A stretch of DNA of 21,218 nt from a virus, in IMG/VR virus record IMGVR_UViG_3300030718_000386, positions 1 through 21,218 of that record; one strand, 5' to 3'. A program made the translations under genes and the position numbers. Every line of letters starts with the position of its first letter. Position 1 is the stretch's first letter. The notes beneath the pieces were generated by a model that worked only from the letters and a program-made list of their open reading frames with translations, was not told the origin of the DNA and made no database searches. Below, in pieces: positions 2,901 through 21,218 of this stretch.

Positions 2901-3374
2901 CTATACGAGTGGAACGCCTGGCGCTTCAGGAGCAGCCGCCGTGACCGGTTGCACGCCTGGCGCTTCGGCGTCTGACGGCATCTCGGCCGCAGCGAGTTGT
3001 TGTGTCAGAGTAGTCTCGACACTTTCCACGGCGGGAGTAATCGCAGCAGCGGCGACCGCCGTGACAGATGTCGGATTGCTTTTCGTCAGCGCAGTCTTCC
3101 ATTGCATAGCGGCGCGTAGTGTAGCAAGCGTCGCGGCAATGAGAAAGACGTAGATAACTTGCTGCCAGTTTAGTGCAGCGAAGTTGAGGGTGTAGAGATA
3201 CTGGCCGACCACGGTGCAACCACCGGCGAGGCCCGCGAGCAAGAAGCCGCCAACGAGTTTGAGGATGGCTTGCTCTAGCGGCGTGAGTGGAACGAGTGCT
3301 TTTGCGCGATACCAAATACCCAGCACAGGAATGTTCTGGAGATTACGCGGCTGCTTTGGTTGTACTGTCGTCAT
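2901..3374 (-). CDS. Putative two-helix holin
   Basis: The start is ATG at 3374, preceded by GAGGAA (complement of 3382-3387) at 7 bases; the open frame runs further upstream but that part lies wholly inside the Ntn hydrolase gene and has no site. The 157-residue product has two membrane segments, about 36-60 (ILKLVGGFLLAGLAGG) and 69-91 (WQQVIYVFLIAATLATL), joined by a short turn, then a ~60-residue Ala/Val/Pro/Thr-rich soluble tail. Small two-helix membrane proteins next to an endolysin are usually holins, which open the inner membrane at lysis. Its start overlaps the previous gene by 32 bp, so translation is probably coupled. No specific holin family is recognised, and another small membrane role is possible. 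Confidence 0.6.
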   Translation of the reverse strand: MTTVQPKQPRNLQNIPVLGIWYRAKALVPLTPLEQAILKLVGGFLLAGLAGGCTVVGQYLYTLNFAALNWQQVIYVFLIAATLATLRAAMQWKTALTKSNPTSVTAVAAAAITPAVESVETTLTQQLAAAEMPSDAEAPGVQPVTAAAPEAPGVPLV

Positions 3375-3981
3375 CTGCCTGTTCCTCGTCTTCGTCTTCG
3401 TCTTCATCTTCATCATCCGGCGGACCTTCGTATGTCCGTTCGCTTTCATGGACGTGGAGAATAGTAAATGGCGCGCGTACACCAAGCGAATGGTATTCAC
3501 TCGCACGTAATGCAAGCTCAATTCGCGCCTCGGGTTCCATGCTCGGCGTAGCATAAAATACTCCGAGCGCAATATCTTCGCCTGACCCTGACGCGTCATA
3601 GAGTGTTGCTGCTTCTCCCACTTGGAAGTCGGACGTAATCTGAAACAAGTGACCGCGGTATCCAATAAGGAAGTTGCCGCCGTATTCCGCTTCATCTAGT
3701 TTGCGAGTATAGCCACCCGCCGTGAAGACGTCGCGGACTGCTTCGATGAAGCGAACGACCATGTATTCCTCGACGTCCATAGTGTCTGGGTGTCGAGGAA
3801 TAATAAGTCCGTAGTGCAAAAGTTGCATCATACGGAATGAGCCACAACCTGCAATCAGAGTGTCGCCGACGCGGAATACTTTCTTGTCAATACGCGTCGT
3901 TATCTGTGACATGTTGCTCGCGGCTGAGTCCGCAGCGACATACACGGTGCCATCTTGCACAATCCCAGCAATGCACGTCAT
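3343..3981 (-). CDS. Proteasome-beta/HslV-like Ntn hydrolase with acidic tail
   Basis: This 212-residue protein begins MTCIAGIVQDG and fits the T1 (proteasome) peptidase family residue by residue. After loss of Met, Thr becomes residue 1 (nucleophile), D17 lies in VAADSA and K33 in IDKKV, the canonical spacing. Later come AGCGS (44-48), the SGSG..IALG element (131-140) and a final strand VRAPFTILHV (168-177). This is the fold of self-activating N-terminal-nucleophile proteases. The last 24 residues are almost all Asp/Glu (189-205), encoded by a GAAGAC/GATGAA simple repeat. The site GGAGG is 6 bases from the ATG. It sits between the C39-like lysin and the holin candidate. No regulatory ATPase partner is visible here. 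Its substrate is unknown; the acidic tail may be a docking or solubility element. Confidence 0.8.
   Translation of the reverse strand: MTCIAGIVQDGTVYVAADSAASNMSQITTRIDKKVFRVGDTLIAGCGSFRMMQLLHYGLIIPRHPDTMDVEEYMVVRFIEAVRDVFTAGGYTRKLDEAEYGGNFLIGYRGHLFQITSDFQVGEAATLYDASGSGEDIALGVFYATPSMEPEARIELALRASEYHSLGVRAPFTILHVHESERTYEGPPDDEDEDEDEDEEQADDDSTTKAAA
3387..3417. repeat. Simple repeat coding the Asp/Glu tail
   Basis: A GTCTTC/ATCTTC-type hexanucleotide run (on the + strand) encodes the alternating Asp-Glu tail of the Ntn hydrolase and borders the ribosome binding site of the holin candidate. Such runs can change copy number by slippage. Confidence 0.7.
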
Positions 3982-4041: not shown

Positions 4042-5082
4042 TTAGGCGGTTGGCGTAGCGATAGCCGCTTGCAAGGCTTTGTCGAATGCGATGAGCGCAG
4101 CAAGCGCACTTTGTCCTTCAGCGTTGATAGCAATTTGCTTTTCCAGCGTGTCGATTTGTGCTTGAAGACTTGCGTTCAAGGCGTCGAGTTTCTGCACGGT
4201 GGCGAGTGCGGCGTCGCGTCCCGTTCGCGCGAAAAGCAGTTCAGCGCCGGTGGGTGCGCGCATGACGGTAGGACCGCTTGCGACTGCTTTGTCCGGCGTA
4301 GGAGCATACGCCAGGACTGAATCTTGGAAGTATTGCAGCGAGCCGTATCCCCAGCGTGTGTCAGATTCGACCACGGTGGCGACTTGCAATTCTTCGGTGA
4401 TAGGCTCGTCTGCTGCGCTCCAGGCGTTTGTGCGGATGAAGTCAGCGAAACCGTGTTGTACGTTCTTGCCATTCGGCGCCGTGATGATGCCGTTGGCGTC
4501 AGTCCAGCCTGCTGGTACCACGGATGTACCTCCAATGTTGATGATGTCGAGGACGAGCATACCACACGGTGTGGCTGCATTCAAGTCGGCGTATGAGTAG
4601 AGAACGAGGTTCTGGTTCGCCGCCCAGTTGTCGCCATCTGCAACCCAGTAACCGAGTGTGTCGAGGCCCAGAATGCAAATGAAGTGGTAGTGTACGCCAG
4701 TTTCGTCACCAGGCAAACCTGCGCCCGCCGTGGCAACCTGCATGACAATGGGACGGATGCCTGCTTGCGCAAGAATCTCAGCGTGCCAGTCATGTTGAAA
4801 GGGTTCTTGGTATGCCCAGTTCGTGAAAATGACGCCATGTTTTACAGCGACTTCTTGCGCCAAGTCCCAGATTGTACTTGCTCCATTGGCGCTCGCCCAA
4901 CCTTTGCTCTTCATGTCTTGTGTCATAGCGAGCATGTATTGAGATTCTTGCGCAATGGTTTCAACAATTCCAAACGCAGAAGCAAGCGCGACGGTCAGGG
5001 CGGTTTCACCGCACGTACCGGTATATCCTCCCCAGAACTCACTGAGGTGTGTTGGGTTAGGGCACATTCGTATAATAGACAT
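4042..5082 (-). CDS. C39-like cysteine peptidase, putative endolysin
   Basis: The start is ATG at 5082 with a GAGAG site about 9 bases upstream; a TTG three codons earlier is less likely. Residues 1 to about 175 look like a papain-fold C39-type peptidase: catalytic Cys24 in GTCGETAL at the start of a helix, His133 (or His131) in VHYHFICILG, and Asp149 or Asp151 in YWVADGDNW. The middle has no motif I recognise. The C terminus (about 280-340) is a likely coiled coil (ATVQKLDALNASLQAQI), which could serve oligomerisation or wall binding. Next to a holin candidate, the obvious role is peptidoglycan cleavage at lysis. There is no signal peptide, so it would need the holin to leave the cell. A virion-associated role is the main alternative. 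Confidence 0.68.
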   Translation of the reverse strand: MSIIRMCPNPTHLSEFWGGYTGTCGETALTVALASAFGIVETIAQESQYMLAMTQDMKSKGWASANGASTIWDLAQEVAVKHGVIFTNWAYQEPFQHDWHAEILAQAGIRPIVMQVATAGAGLPGDETGVHYHFICILGLDTLGYWVADGDNWAANQNLVLYSYADLNAATPCGMLVLDIINIGGTSVVPAGWTDANGIITAPNGKNVQHGFADFIRTNAWSAADEPITEELQVATVVESDTRWGYGSLQYFQDSVLAYAPTPDKAVASGPTVMRAPTGAELLFARTGRDAALATVQKLDALNASLQAQIDTLEKQIAINAEGQSALAALIAFDKALQAAIATPTA

Positions 5083-5153
5083 AGCGAGCAACTCTCATTC
5101 TGTGACTGGTGTCTTCTCTCATTGTATGGCGTCGGGTTTAGGTGCGGCTTTCT

Positions 5154-5636
5154 TTATCCCAGGAGTCCTGGGAACTGAGGCGCAAGCGCACGGGCGATGT
5201 CATTGGGTGAAACAAGGCTAACGTCGATGTCATCTGGGGGCAAGGGATATTCTGCCATCCAAAGAAACGAAACAACAAGATCGCTGCAATCAAGCGTCTT
5301 CGTGTCAATAAGGTAGGGACCGTACGGAAAGACCATTGTCCATGCTTGCGCGAGAATATCAAGCCACCCGTACCTATCTCCAACGCGTTTGATCGCCCAC
5401 ATCAAAGCCTGCGCAAGTTGAGGACCGGTCGGCAATTTTTCTCCAACGGGCACGCAGACAACACGGGGCCCAGTTGGTATATCGTGCATCACGACGCCCC
5501 GTGTCAACGCCCCGATTGACTGCCCGTTTCCTATGTCCACTTCGACGTGACAGTATTGTCCTTTTGTACGCCACATAATCAAGCGGTCGCCCAAACTGTT
5601 TGGATTGCCACGTACGAGCAAGATGTCACCACGCAT
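5154..5636 (-). CDS. Permuted papain-like (YiiX/NlpC-P60-type) cysteine hydrolase
   Basis: The start is ATG at 5636, preceded by AGGGG at 7 bases and lying 4 bases after the stop of the BppU-like gene; an in-frame ATG at 5666 would overlap that gene. The order of active-site residues is His first, Cys second: MRGDILLVRG at the N terminus, H30 in YCHVEVDIGNG and C117 in LDCSDLVVSF. That is the circularly permuted NlpC/P60 arrangement. Family members cleave amide bonds in peptidoglycan or lipids. Placed between tail-fibre genes and the C39-like lysin, it could be a second wall hydrolase carried on the virion or used at lysis. No signal peptide or membrane segment is visible. A 7-bp stem with a three-base loop (5157-5173) lies directly before its stop codon. 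Confidence 0.68.
   Translation of the reverse strand: MRGDILLVRGNPNSLGDRLIMWRTKGQYCHVEVDIGNGQSIGALTRGVVMHDIPTGPRVVCVPVGEKLPTGPQLAQALMWAIKRVGDRYGWLDILAQAWTMVFPYGPYLIDTKTLDCSDLVVSFLWMAEYPLPPDDIDVSLVSPNDIARALAPQFPGLLG
5157..5173. repeat. Tight hairpin at the end of the permuted hydrolase gene
   Basis: TCCCAGG, AGT, CCTGGGA is a perfect 7-bp stem with a triloop, ending at the TAA (5154-5156). It precedes the 71-bp spacer before the C39-like gene. On the - strand it is followed by an A-rich stretch, not a U-run, so transcription termination is not supported; RNA processing or translation spacing is possible. Confidence 0.5.
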
Positions 5637-5640
5637 TGCA

Positions 5641-5970
5641 TTACCCCTGTAGAATCGTGAAGTCAACAGGCAGACTTTTCCACGTCTTTCCGTTTGGCAT
5701 GACTGCTTGTATTAAAAAGCGATAGGTTCCTGCTTGCGCGACATCTGCATCAGCGAATGCATACGTTATCTGCCCAGCGGTTGCTGTAATGATCGTTACA
5801 CTACCAGCAAGCGCCGTGAAGACATTCGGGGCTCGCCCGTCTTTTCGTTGTACTCGCGCCGTGATGCTTGCTGCTGAAACTCCCGTGAGGTCAAGTGCGC
5901 TCGTCGCTGACTGCTTGAGCGTCAGTGGCAGCTGTGTATACGTGTGTCCCTGCACCCAAACAATACCCAT
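5641..5970 (-). CDS. BppU-like baseplate domain protein
   Basis: This 109-residue protein resembles only the N-terminal domain of the BppU/DUF2479 baseplate upper proteins: a hydrophobic first strand (LPLTLKQ), DLTGVSAASITARVQR.DG, then a GSVTIITATAGQITYAF..ADVAQAGTYRF core and a closing strand VDFTILQG. The GQITY.F..ADV..AGTYRF pattern is the best mark. BppU attaches receptor-binding proteins to the baseplate; here the C-terminal part is missing, so it is probably an adapter or a small decorating protein. A GGAG site lies 6 bases before the ATG, and only 3 bases separate it from the stop of the long repeat protein, so the two are likely made together and may bind each other. Confidence 0.7.
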   Translation of the reverse strand: MGIVWVQGHTYTQLPLTLKQSATSALDLTGVSAASITARVQRKDGRAPNVFTALAGSVTIITATAGQITYAFADADVAQAGTYRFLIQAVMPNGKTWKSLPVDFTILQG

Positions 5971-16499: not shown

Positions 16500-19400
16500 T
16501 TACACTTTCTTCTGTGTCGTGGTACGAACACGCTGTATTATATGTGAGCCCGCGATGTTGCCAAGTTCTCGGCCATCAATGTAGATATGATTCTCAACGA
16601 CAACGTTCCCAGACATCGTACCACGGCCGCTTCTCGGTGTGACGTCCTCAGGACCATTCTCCCCTAGCGCATACATGCTTCCCGACGCAAGGCCAACACC
16701 AAGCATTGGTTCAGCAATCGTTCCACCGTTTGCCATCTTCGTAATCGGGTTTGCGTTACCATAACGAACACGCGCTCCCCACCATGCGGGCGAGCCATTC
16801 TGCCAGAATCCACCCCAAGGATTCATCGCAGTTAGTACCTGCTTGTTTGCATCCCAGCCGGCGAATGCAATCTCATGGGTTGGTGACTGCGAAGATGCAT
16901 TATTCCAGTCACTCGGGATAGCAGCAATCGATGGAATACCCCGCTGAATGTTTGCAATGACTTGTGAGATAACGCCCGACCCGTTTCCTCCAACATTCCC
17001 AAAGCCAACACCCAACTGTCGTAGATACGCAGCATAACGACCTGGCGACGTTCCTCCTTGATACCCAGCGCCATACACGGCGTCTTTCAACTGGACTGGT
17101 GTAACGATGTGTCCGAGAACGAAAGATGCCGCTGACGCCAGAGAAGTTGGCACGCAGTCATAATCTCGGTTGACATCTGTCAATGCCAACTGGTTGAAGA
17201 GCGGATACCCAGAAAGTACACCCGTGGAACTACCACGACCGCCACTGCCAACTTGCCCCGTGTTCGTAGATGATACTGCATTAAGCATCGTGCCGATGAA
17301 TGACACGGCGTCTTTCTTCAACATAGAAAGCAAACCTGTGGTCATTCCACCAAACACGCCGGGCAGTCCAATCTTGCCCAGACCGAGTGCTTTCAACATT
17401 GCACTGACGAGCGCGTCAGGTCCCTCAGATACCCAACTCGAAACGTCACCCGCGATACTCTTGAGCCCATTCACGGCGCCGCCGACTGCATTCTTCGCAG
17501 AGTTGACGCCATTCTTCAAGTCACCCCAGATGTCGCCGATGCCTCCTGCGAAAGCAGGCACGGCGCCGTGCAATGCATGTACCATCGACTTTGTCTGGTC
17601 AGCAGGCATTACCTTTGTGCCCTTGGGGAGCGTAACAAGCTCAGGGCCTTGTTCGCCGACCATCGCGACGCCACCCTCAAATGAGTCAGTTCCCTTTGCG
17701 AGAGCAGGTACTCGTGACAGCGTGACTGCTGCAATGGGTTTCCCGTTTCCCAACTTGTCAGACAGCCAGTCAATACCACCTCCGATGTCATTCAAGAACT
17801 TTTCGATACCGCCAATGACGCTATTGACACCTCCAATAACGCCGTTGCCGAACGCTTTGATAACGTTCGGCATTGCGCTCGCCGCGTCATTGAACGGTTG
17901 TAGCAACGCATTCTTGATGTCATTTGCTTTTCCAGAGATGATGTTCCACAACGTTGTTACTGCTGTGGTTGCGTCAGATGTCAACGTATTCCAACTGTTC
18001 AACAACTGGGACGAGATGTCATTCCACACGGTGGCGAATACATTCTTGATGTTATTGAGCGCACCGGTCAGTGTCGTCCAGATGGTATTGAGAATACCCG
18101 TAAAGAAGTCGGACAACGCATTCCACACGGTGCTTGTTACACTCGTAATGAACGCCCAGTCGACCGTAATGATGTTCAGAATCTCGTCAAGCACGGCGGT
18201 GAATACTGCGACGATTGCGCTCCAGATGTCGTTAATAACACCCCCGACGATGTTGAGCGCCGTGACAATGATCGTGTAATAGGTGTCGAACATCGTCGTG
18301 AACAGGGCGCCAAGTACGCCAAGCGCGATTGTGATGATATTGACAACGTAATTCCACGCGTCCTGGATTACTCCCCATAGCGCCGTGAGTACGGTTGTGA
18401 TAATAGAAACGTAGAAGTTCCAGGCAGCCGAGATAAGGTTTCCCAGCGCAGTCAACACAGTTTCGATAATTGACACGTAGGCGTTGAAAACGTCGAGAAT
18501 CAGTTTACCGATGATACCGAAGATGGCGCTGAGAAACTGGAAAATGAATTGCCAGATTGCCATGAAGAACTGTTGAATACCTGTCAGCGGTCCTGCAACG
18601 GCGTCGTACATGTTCGTCCCAGTAGAAGTAAGCGAGGAGACGATTGCGTTAATCGGACCCATAACGACACTGAGTATAGAACTCCAGATGGCTGACACGG
18701 CGGAAACGACGTTATTCCAGTTCGTTGTCCATGCATTCGCAAGATAGTCACCAAACGCCGTGAACTTATCTATGAGCCAGGTAAGTCCGTCTTGCACGCC
18801 CTTTACAACAGCCGACCATACCATCGTCAGGAATTGTGACACTTGCTTCCAGTGAGTGACAAGTTCGTATATCCCAATAACAAGCAGGGCAATCACGCCG
18901 ATGATAACGAGAATTGGCCATTCTGCAGCGATAAACGCAGCAGCCGCTGACCATGCCGCCGTGGCAGTTGTAAACAAGCCAGCGATCATACCTGGCAGGG
19001 CTTCGGTGATGAAGGCAAGCGCAGCCTCAATGCCGGCTTGCACAGAAGCAACAAAGCCCGTCCCCATGGCGATGGCCGATTGCCATGCCGCAGCGGCGGT
19101 TGCTTGCAAGTTAATAATGAATGAGAGAAGCGCAAGGCCGGCGTCCGCTGCAGCTCCCAGAATAGCTTGCAGGCCTGCCATGACGAACTGAGCAGCCATA
19201 CTGGCGCCTGCAATGGCAGACTGCACGCCAACTTGTATCAAGGCTGGAAGGAAGAACGCCGTGATAGCGCCGCCCACTGCTAGGATGGGAGTTTTCCACT
19301 GATTAAACCAACCAATCACTGCCATAACTTTGTCCCGAACGTCGTCGAGGCCACCGCCAAGCAGCGTATTGATAATGTCCCATTCTCGTGTAACGGCGCC

Positions 19401-21188
19401 GGTCAGGTCTGACCACGCTTGCTTCCAATTCCCGCTGAGCAAGTCCAGCGCAATCTCGATAACACTACCAAGTACGTTCATCGCAGTCTTGAGGATTGCC
19501 ATGATAATGTCAGCGGTTGCTTTTACCGTTATGGAGAGCGTTGGCCAGAGCGCATCCCAGACAGCACGAATGCCGTTTGTTGTACTCGAAACAGCCGTGC
19601 GTATTTTCGGGAAGTCCGTCGAAAACAGACCAACCAGTTCTTTAATGACGGGCGTTGCTCGCTGTCCAATAGCATTCGCAAACTTGTCGAACTGCGCAAT
19701 AACCTGTTGTACTTCTGGCTGGATACTTTGGAGCAATTGCTGAAGTTTACCAAGCACATCTCGTACAAGAGTTTGCACGGCGGCTCTGAACTGCTCGTTC
19801 GTATTGTACCAGTGAACGAAGAGCAGAATAATTCCTGCAACAGCAACTGCGATGAGAGTAAAAGGAAGCAACGCTGAGTCGACAGCGAAAGCGTTCGCCA
19901 TCCAGGCTTTCGCAGAATCGAGCAACCCAGGAATCAACTTCGCTTTGGTTGTCGCTGCAGCGATGCCCGATTGAATGTTGTAGGCAGCAAAGGCTATACC
20001 TACAGCAATAATGACTCCTTTCAGTGCGTCAGCTGCGGGTGACGCCCCCGTGATAAACGAAGCGAACGCTTTCACTTTCTCGCCGGCTTGCCCTACAGAA
20101 GGACCCAGCCCGGAGTTGAGCACATCAACGACTTTCTTAATCGTTGAGTCCACCGTGTTAAACGCCGGCGTCAGGTATTCATCCATGAATGCAGAAACGG
20201 CATCCATAGCGACGGGAAGCGCTTGGCCGAGCATACCAGCAAGTGGCGCCACGGCGCCCATCAGGTTCCCCATGATAGGAATCAAACCGGCGCCGATTTT
20301 CTCACGCATAAGCTCGAACTGGTCGCTGAGAATTGTCATGCGGCCAGAGAATGTTGAGCCCATTGCTTGCGCAACATTGCCCAAGCGGCCGTGCAGCGCA
20401 GCAAGCACGACACCCTGCGCACCAGCAACATTATTGACTGCCATGAAAGACTTAATAGCGTCTTTCTGTTGCGTGCTGAGTGTAATACCAAAGCGGGTGA
20501 GTTGCGTTACACCTTTTACGGGGTCTTCAAGCGCACGGCCCATAAGGCGGGCGGCCTGTGGAACAGCGATACCCAGCTTTGCCGCCAGGTCGAGCGCCAT
20601 CGACGTTGCTTGGGGAAACGTATTTTTCCCAACCTTGTCGAATGTCGCCATAATGGACTCACCCTGCATGATTGTATTCGCAGAGTACGTCGTAACGCCA
20701 GACAACGATTCAGCAAGCTTATCCGCCATCTCCGAAGTAACGCCCGTTGACTTTCCTGTCATCGCAAGTGAAGCGTTCAATGACGCCATAACTTGCTGCG
20801 CTGCGCTTCCTTCTTCCATTGACTTCTTGATACCCTCGTACAAGAAGTCAAACGCCTGTGACGCTCCGCCAACAACCATACCGCCCGTTGCGAGTGACAG
20901 GAAGCTGTCCGCCAACCCAAGGACTTTCTCCTTTGTTTGCGTGAGCTTGTTTCCATGCGCTTCAGCTGCCGCGCTTGCTTCCTTGTGCGCTTCAGTCAGG
21001 TCTTTCCCAACAATCACAACATCCTTGGCGGCCGCTTCACCCATCTTCGTGAGTTCACTCGTGACACCGCCGCTACTCTTCTTTGCAGAAGCACTCACAG
21101 TGTCTAGACCGTCAGCAATTTTCTTCAGGCCTATTGTTACCGCGTCATTCAATTGTGCTTTGACAACAAGCGTTTTGTCTTCGGCCAT
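16500..21188 (-). CDS. Tape measure protein with C-terminal C39-like peptidase
   Basis: The start is ATG at 21188 behind GGAG at 8 bases; a GTG three codons earlier is less likely. The 1562 residues begin with a helical region and continue with long hydrophobic helices typical of tape measure proteins (ALLPFTLIAVAVAGIILLF, PILVIIGVIALLVIGIYEL). Residues 902-1011 hold five exact 22-residue repeats. GEQGPELVTLPKGTKVMP and, near the end, GENGPEDVTP are tape-measure marks. Between these, about 1325-1475 is a C39-type papain-fold peptidase: C1345 in YDCVPTSLASA, H1438 in THEIAFAGWD, N1456 in AMNPWGGFW. It measures tail length and probably cuts peptidoglycan during DNA entry. By the usual ~0.15 nm per residue, a tail of roughly 200 nm or more would be expected. 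No frameshifted chaperone gene is in view; it would lie beyond the window end. Confidence 0.92.
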   Translation of the reverse strand: MAEDKTLVVKAQLNDAVTIGLKKIADGLDTVSASAKKSSGGVTSELTKMGEAAAKDVVIVGKDLTEAHKEASAAAEAHGNKLTQTKEKVLGLADSFLSLATGGMVVGGASQAFDFLYEGIKKSMEEGSAAQQVMASLNASLAMTGKSTGVTSEMADKLAESLSGVTTYSANTIMQGESIMATFDKVGKNTFPQATSMALDLAAKLGIAVPQAARLMGRALEDPVKGVTQLTRFGITLSTQQKDAIKSFMAVNNVAGAQGVVLAALHGRLGNVAQAMGSTFSGRMTILSDQFELMREKIGAGLIPIMGNLMGAVAPLAGMLGQALPVAMDAVSAFMDEYLTPAFNTVDSTIKKVVDVLNSGLGPSVGQAGEKVKAFASFITGASPAADALKGVIIAVGIAFAAYNIQSGIAAATTKAKLIPGLLDSAKAWMANAFAVDSALLPFTLIAVAVAGIILLFVHWYNTNEQFRAAVQTLVRDVLGKLQQLLQSIQPEVQQVIAQFDKFANAIGQRATPVIKELVGLFSTDFPKIRTAVSSTTNGIRAVWDALWPTLSITVKATADIIMAILKTAMNVLGSVIEIALDLLSGNWKQAWSDLTGAVTREWDIINTLLGGGLDDVRDKVMAVIGWFNQWKTPILAVGGAITAFFLPALIQVGVQSAIAGASMAAQFVMAGLQAILGAAADAGLALLSFIINLQATAAAAWQSAIAMGTGFVASVQAGIEAALAFITEALPGMIAGLFTTATAAWSAAAAFIAAEWPILVIIGVIALLVIGIYELVTHWKQVSQFLTMVWSAVVKGVQDGLTWLIDKFTAFGDYLANAWTTNWNNVVSAVSAIWSSILSVVMGPINAIVSSLTSTGTNMYDAVAGPLTGIQQFFMAIWQFIFQFLSAIFGIIGKLILDVFNAYVSIIETVLTALGNLISAAWNFYVSIITTVLTALWGVIQDAWNYVVNIITIALGVLGALFTTMFDTYYTIIVTALNIVGGVINDIWSAIVAVFTAVLDEILNIITVDWAFITSVTSTVWNALSDFFTGILNTIWTTLTGALNNIKNVFATVWNDISSQLLNSWNTLTSDATTAVTTLWNIISGKANDIKNALLQPFNDAASAMPNVIKAFGNGVIGGVNSVIGGIEKFLNDIGGGIDWLSDKLGNGKPIAAVTLSRVPALAKGTDSFEGGVAMVGEQGPELVTLPKGTKVMPADQTKSMVHALHGAVPAFAGGIGDIWGDLKNGVNSAKNAVGGAVNGLKSIAGDVSSWVSEGPDALVSAMLKALGLGKIGLPGVFGGMTTGLLSMLKKDAVSFIGTMLNAVSSTNTGQVGSGGRGSSTGVLSGYPLFNQLALTDVNRDYDCVPTSLASAASFVLGHIVTPVQLKDAVYGAGYQGGTSPGRYAAYLRQLGVGFGNVGGNGSGVISQVIANIQRGIPSIAAIPSDWNNASSQSPTHEIAFAGWDANKQVLTAMNPWGGFWQNGSPAWWGARVRYGNANPITKMANGGTIAEPMLGVGLASGSMYALGENGPEDVTPRSGRGTMSGNVVVENHIYIDGRELGNIAGSHIIQRVRTTTQKKV
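17559..17570. repeat. CACGGCGCCGTG palindrome (overlapping motif pair)
   Basis: A perfect 12-bp palindrome formed by CACGGCG overlapping CGCCGTG, inside the tape measure gene. It is one of the 65 occurrences of the word counted in this window. Confidence 0.85.
18156..18485 (-). repeat. Five 66-bp repeats in the tape measure gene
   Basis: Residues 902-1011 are five consecutive 22-residue units, e.g. NFYVSIITTVLTALWGVI plus QDAW, most ending in Trp or Phe and starting near (N/D).Y(V/Y).II. A sixth, weaker unit follows. A period of 22 is two hendecads, which suits a straight helical bundle. Confidence 0.82.
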
Positions 21189-21218
21189 TGGGCGCACTCC
21201 GTCTGTTGGGCAGCAAAA

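Follow-up and report, generated by a model that had tools for sequence, protein, structure and literature searches.

The window, that is, the whole stretch of 21,218 bases that was analysed, is a virus fragment in which the head genes of the source phage lie outside view. Near the end of its minus-strand late operon, which runs from the tape measure gene through other tail-region ORFs to an ORF of 157 aa, lies a gene that codes for a proteasome-like hydrolase (Table 1). The preliminary description had placed an ORF here and given no strand; the ORF is real, with exactly the boundaries listed and on the minus strand, the plus strand being interrupted there by stops. No earlier in-frame start was found upstream of ATG 3981, which is preceded by a good ribosome-binding site, GGAGG (GGCGGAGGTATAGAATG). 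Plus-strand genes at 556-2661, convergent with the late operon, code for an HNH endonuclease (phrog_826), a DUF1643 protein and a ThyX thymidylate synthase, and the tape measure protein carries near its C-terminus a stretch that, by eye only, looks like a C39 peptidase (DYDCVPTSLASAASFVLGH). Searches of viral contigs through the neighbouring ORF, the tail protein or ThyX found no close relatives of the source phage.

Table 1. Features of the hydrolase gene and of its surroundings in the window.
Feature	Position	Strand	Basis
Proteasome-like Ntn (Thr1) hydrolase gene, group I / AAH-like, phrog_1040, 212 aa	3343..3981	-	ORF, PHROG, AF2, structural alignment, conservation
Codon ACG, Thr2 (mature Thr1 nucleophile), right behind the start Met	3976..3978	-	Sequence, 100% conservation, structural register
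Acidic C-terminal tail, residues 181-212, low confidence, outside the conserved fold, absent from relatives	3343..3441	-	pLDDT about 50-67
Hexanucleotide repeat encoding (DE)n within the tail; also provides a purine-rich stretch shortly before the start codon of the next ORF	3386..3414	-	Tandem Repeats Finder, sequence
Next ORF, 157 aa, two hydrophobic segments, candidate holin, overlapping the hydrolase gene	2901..3374	-	No PHROG match
Preceding ORF, 349 aa, 'C39-like lysin' of the preliminary description, no lysin-family match	4042..5091	-	Pfam, PHROG, PDB
ORF with weak sub-threshold NlpC/P60 match	5154..5666	-	Pfam E 0.03; phrog_1128 E 5e-15
Tail tape measure protein	16500..21197	-	phrog_167 E 2e-55

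The gene product matches phrog_1040, annotated as 'peptidase HslV family' (E 3e-23), and its sequence hits BPH (E 7e-5), both well outside what chance would give. The Pfam family PF00227 (Proteasome subunit) scores below threshold (18.7 bits vs a gathering cut-off of 22.4) because the protein is too divergent for the curated cut-off; assignment to the superfamily is based instead on fold and catalytic register. Among NCBIfam models, no HslV model matched and the archaeal proteasome beta model did so only weakly (26.3 vs a cut-off of 224). Homologs are present in 167 phage records, the closest at 47% identity, and in the PDB a profile built from 107 relatives retrieves BPH, HslV and beta chains of proteasomes; the copy in the window is divergent, with at most 51% identity to its relatives and a long branch in a poorly resolved gene tree. 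AlphaFold2 predicts an alpha-beta-beta-alpha fold with high confidence (pLDDT 91.7, pTM 0.82), the tail being the one low-confidence part, and more than 1000 PDB entries match the model at E <= 0.001, those of BPH, HslV and 20S heading the list. With VIA-align the nearest structure is BPH (Z 21.1, rmsd 2.4 over 171 residues), followed by 20S beta and HslV (Z about 18-19). In its predicted secondary structure the protein is a compact group I subunit with helices H1-H4 (H1 at residues 49-58, H2 at 70-88) and a core of about 180 residues, lacking both an insertion and S12/H5.

In the structural alignment, residue 2 of the model superposes on residue 1 of BPH, HslV and 20S beta, and Thr2 (mature Thr1), Asp18 (Asp17) and Lys34 (Lys33) are 100% conserved among 142 relatives, a figure that is partly circular for Thr, since one of the two search patterns included MTCI, while Asp17 and Lys33 were in neither pattern. 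Ser47, Arg49, Phe77, Gly101, Gly131 and Gly133 are likewise invariant, the last two being the glycines (mature numbering) of the SGSG..IALG element, which is present in the sequence. The catalytic triad at canonical proteasome-beta positions and the retained SGSG..IALG element, both proposed in the preliminary description, are thus borne out, and the objection that the fold might be a different one fails. Given the known specificity of methionine aminopeptidases, a Met that precedes Thr should be removed, and the start context, with Thr directly behind Met, supports the view that Thr1 can be exposed. The gene product is almost certainly a proteasome-like threonine hydrolase; it is probably catalytically active, and a ring seems somewhat favoured as the state of its subunits. 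At residues 41-52 (3826-3861), beside the position of the S1-pocket and oxyanion residues, the GFTSSFRMG of nearly all relatives is replaced by AGCGSFRMM, a difference in sequence suggesting that the substrate preference of this copy may differ from theirs.

The C-terminal tail is as acidic as had been claimed, with 15 Asp/Glu in its best 20 residues (the next highest relative has 7 in 20), owing to the short hexanucleotide repeat in the DNA. It is unique to this copy, and its interpretation as a conserved functional element was rejected for that reason. As the repeat forms a purine-rich stretch before the start of the next ORF, the composition of the tail may partly reflect a translation signal.

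The gene context of the relatives was surveyed by scanning the neighbours of 67 dereplicated viral copies against PHROGs. The commonest neighbour families are the small and large terminase subunits, the portal, the head-maturation protease and the major head protein. For the 37 copies to which a BLAST-based classification gave no head call, the neighbours include some further terminase/portal genes and DNA methyltransferases and, for the large phages in this set, a metal-dependent phosphohydrolase and an NAD-dependent DNA ligase. Distances were calculated from terminase and portal positions taken from whole contigs, with random positions as the expectation and with limits (3 kb and 70 kb) that were the analyst's choice, the 70 kb limit being set together with the distance analysis itself. 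In contigs of <70 kb with a marker, 23/32 copies lie within 3 kb of a terminase or portal gene vs 7.3 expected (P about 3e-9); for all 39 contigs the count is 23 vs 7.6 expected, none of the seven copies in contigs of >100 kb being so placed. Phylogeny entered the P values by identity collapse only: after collapsing at 70% identity, 18/26 copies remain close vs 5.6 expected, at 60% the signal is weaker (6/11 vs 2.1 expected, P 0.01) and at 55% there is none (n = 4). Among control genes taken from the same contigs, those for DNA methyltransferase (1/13) and integrase (0/15) are rarely or never within 3 kb, and those for the head protease nearly always are (19/21).

The recurrent head neighbours are all on the same strand as the hydrolase gene, which occupies different slots (before the terminase, between terminase and portal, or between portal and protease); HNH endonucleases are also found in head-block slots. 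Since an intact head-maturation protease (phrog_80) is usually present as well (in 17/23 head-located contigs), the hydrolase is an addition and not a substitute, and a replacement of the prohead protease was rejected. A second, different conserved context is found in a set of large phages (contigs of 62-481 kb; L047, L065, L066, L067, L073 and L078), in which a conserved protein of roughly 210 aa directly precedes the hydrolase, a protein of roughly 620 aa follows it in most cases and the phosphohydrolase and DNA ligase families recur. In other large phages the copies lie among hypothetical, replication or nucleotide genes. No head genes were found within 3 kb of the bacterial relatives from Azospirillum, Frankia and Dactylosporangium, and the bacterial copies (a subset of L098-L166, from these genera and Rhizobium), which group by host clade, look like resident chromosomal genes.

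The location in a head/packaging block in most contigs of mid-sized tailed phages that carry the gene is new with respect to the 2021 survey of the superfamily discussed below, and points tentatively to a function in the late stages of virion production. A main role at this stage is the preferred reading, held tentatively at a probability of about 0.4. It gives indirect support to one of the functions proposed earlier, the processing of virion proteins; no virion proteomics papers on Geobacillus virus E3 or Moorella MTATph1, phages that carry close homologs, were found in the library searched. The argument from head genes covers the relatives, the copy in the window being located where a tail-gene operon ends and outside any head block, and a location in the head module may reflect no more than late co-expression or an insertion site at which accessory genes are tolerated. 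The protein would act as a free-standing threonine peptidase subunit and not as the partner of an ATPase: the host methionine aminopeptidase would strip Met1 and expose Thr1, and the subunits would form a closed double ring like that of BPH, with a chamber open to peptides and unfolded chains only. It would be expressed late and act during virion production, where its most likely task would be the clearing or trimming, without ATP, of scaffold or maturation fragments and misassembled structural proteins, the head-maturation protease staying in place alongside it. That such loose polypeptides are the particular substrate class is in itself unlikely, and it is equally unlikely that the phage proteins of AAH type provide a dedicated ATP-independent, proteasome-like chamber for head assembly or DNA packaging, used for instance to dispose of scaffold and maturation fragments. 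If true, this last reading would add a second proteolytic machine to virion morphogenesis, beside the standard head-maturation protease. Phage proteasome-like proteins have been known since 2021 without a functional clue, and the concentration of the present subfamily in head/packaging regions, with controls within the same contigs, gives a first testable direction, towards expression late in infection, head assembly and the processing of virion proteins.

An explanation that is possible rather than probable is that the hydrolase is an accessory (moron-like) protease directed against host proteins, such as regulators or defence proteins, and that the late module is simply a tolerated insertion slot. 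The variable slots, the at least 15 context switches counted on the (poorly resolved) tree of viral copies and the different placement of the gene in large phages are all consistent with this. Cargo of this kind, however, should not cluster in head blocks, and the methyltransferase and integrase controls do not; the PADLOC defence models also gave no match, although this says little about anti-defence. The immediate neighbours of the gene bear on another idea, contained in the preliminary description, namely that the hydrolase belongs to a lysis cassette and sets the timing of lysis by processing or degrading the neighbouring lysis proteins. The gene is flanked by a putative peptidase-like ORF and by an ORF with two hydrophobic segments, and its 32 nt overlap with the latter (157 aa) suggests translational coupling. 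The candidate C39 lysin and candidate holin, however, were named from a motif and from hydrophobicity, and no lysin or holin family match was found for either of them in Pfam, PHROG or PDB (single-sequence AF2 modelling of the 349 aa neighbour gave a mean pLDDT of 38.9). Lysis families are, in addition, absent from the 25 commonest neighbour families of the relatives in each of three surveys, these neighbours being mostly head/packaging genes, so that the cassette finds no support as a functional clue, the timing of lysis gains no support from the relatives and a lysis-timing protease appears improbable.

The takeover or blocking of host HslUV, likewise proposed in the preliminary description, is neither favoured nor contradicted by the results. 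HslU is common in bacteria and one of the nearest folds is that of HslV (Z about 19), as would suit a subunit that serves as a decoy for host HslV or takes its place, capturing or blocking HslU. Such a subunit is quite improbable, because the closer match in both fold and sequence is BPH, for which no unfoldase is known, and an identity to HslV of about 18% would make a mixed ring unlikely. Finally, archaeal connectase has a proteasome-like fold and acts as a ligase (PMC8665760), and the head-module location is compatible with a specific protein ligase/transpeptidase of this sort that would, for example, join virion proteins; connectase, however, lacks helices H1 and H2, both present here, and carries a helical insertion in their place (PMC8665760), and the closest fold is BPH, which makes this function highly improbable.

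With respect to known systems, Fuchs, Alva and Lupas (2021) described 22 proteasome-like subfamilies, three of which (AAH, PPH and CPH) occur in phages, without AAA+ partners and without informative gene context (PMC8665760). The window likewise contains no ATPase partner, as already noted in the preliminary description, and no AAA+ unfoldase is found among the commonest neighbour families of the relatives, in agreement with the survey. PPH is also a phage-borne proteasome-like protein, but it has about 140 residues and lacks H2, and this identity was rejected on the size of the hydrolase core and the presence of that helix. HslV (ClpQ) shares the group I fold, the MT start and Thr1/Asp17/Lys33, but the identity is low and the window has no HslU gene; the database label 'peptidase HslV family' is loose. 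BPH (5ovs, 5ovt, 5ovu) is the closest solved fold and shares the Thr1 register and the absence of a known ATPase partner, although it is only 22% identical and clusters separately in the 2021 survey. AAH, compared by description, has a compact core with H1-H4 and no H5, and it is spread over alpha-proteobacteria, Actinobacteria, some Firmicutes and phages (PMC8665760), as are the relatives found here, which span alpha-proteobacteria (Azospirillum, Rhizobium), Actinobacteria (Frankia, Dactylosporangium), Bacillota and phages. The family was thus already described in 2021, phage copies included, most likely as AAH, and the gene in the window is a divergent member of it, distinguished by AGCGSFRMM in place of the family's GFTSSFRMG and by its unique acidic tail.
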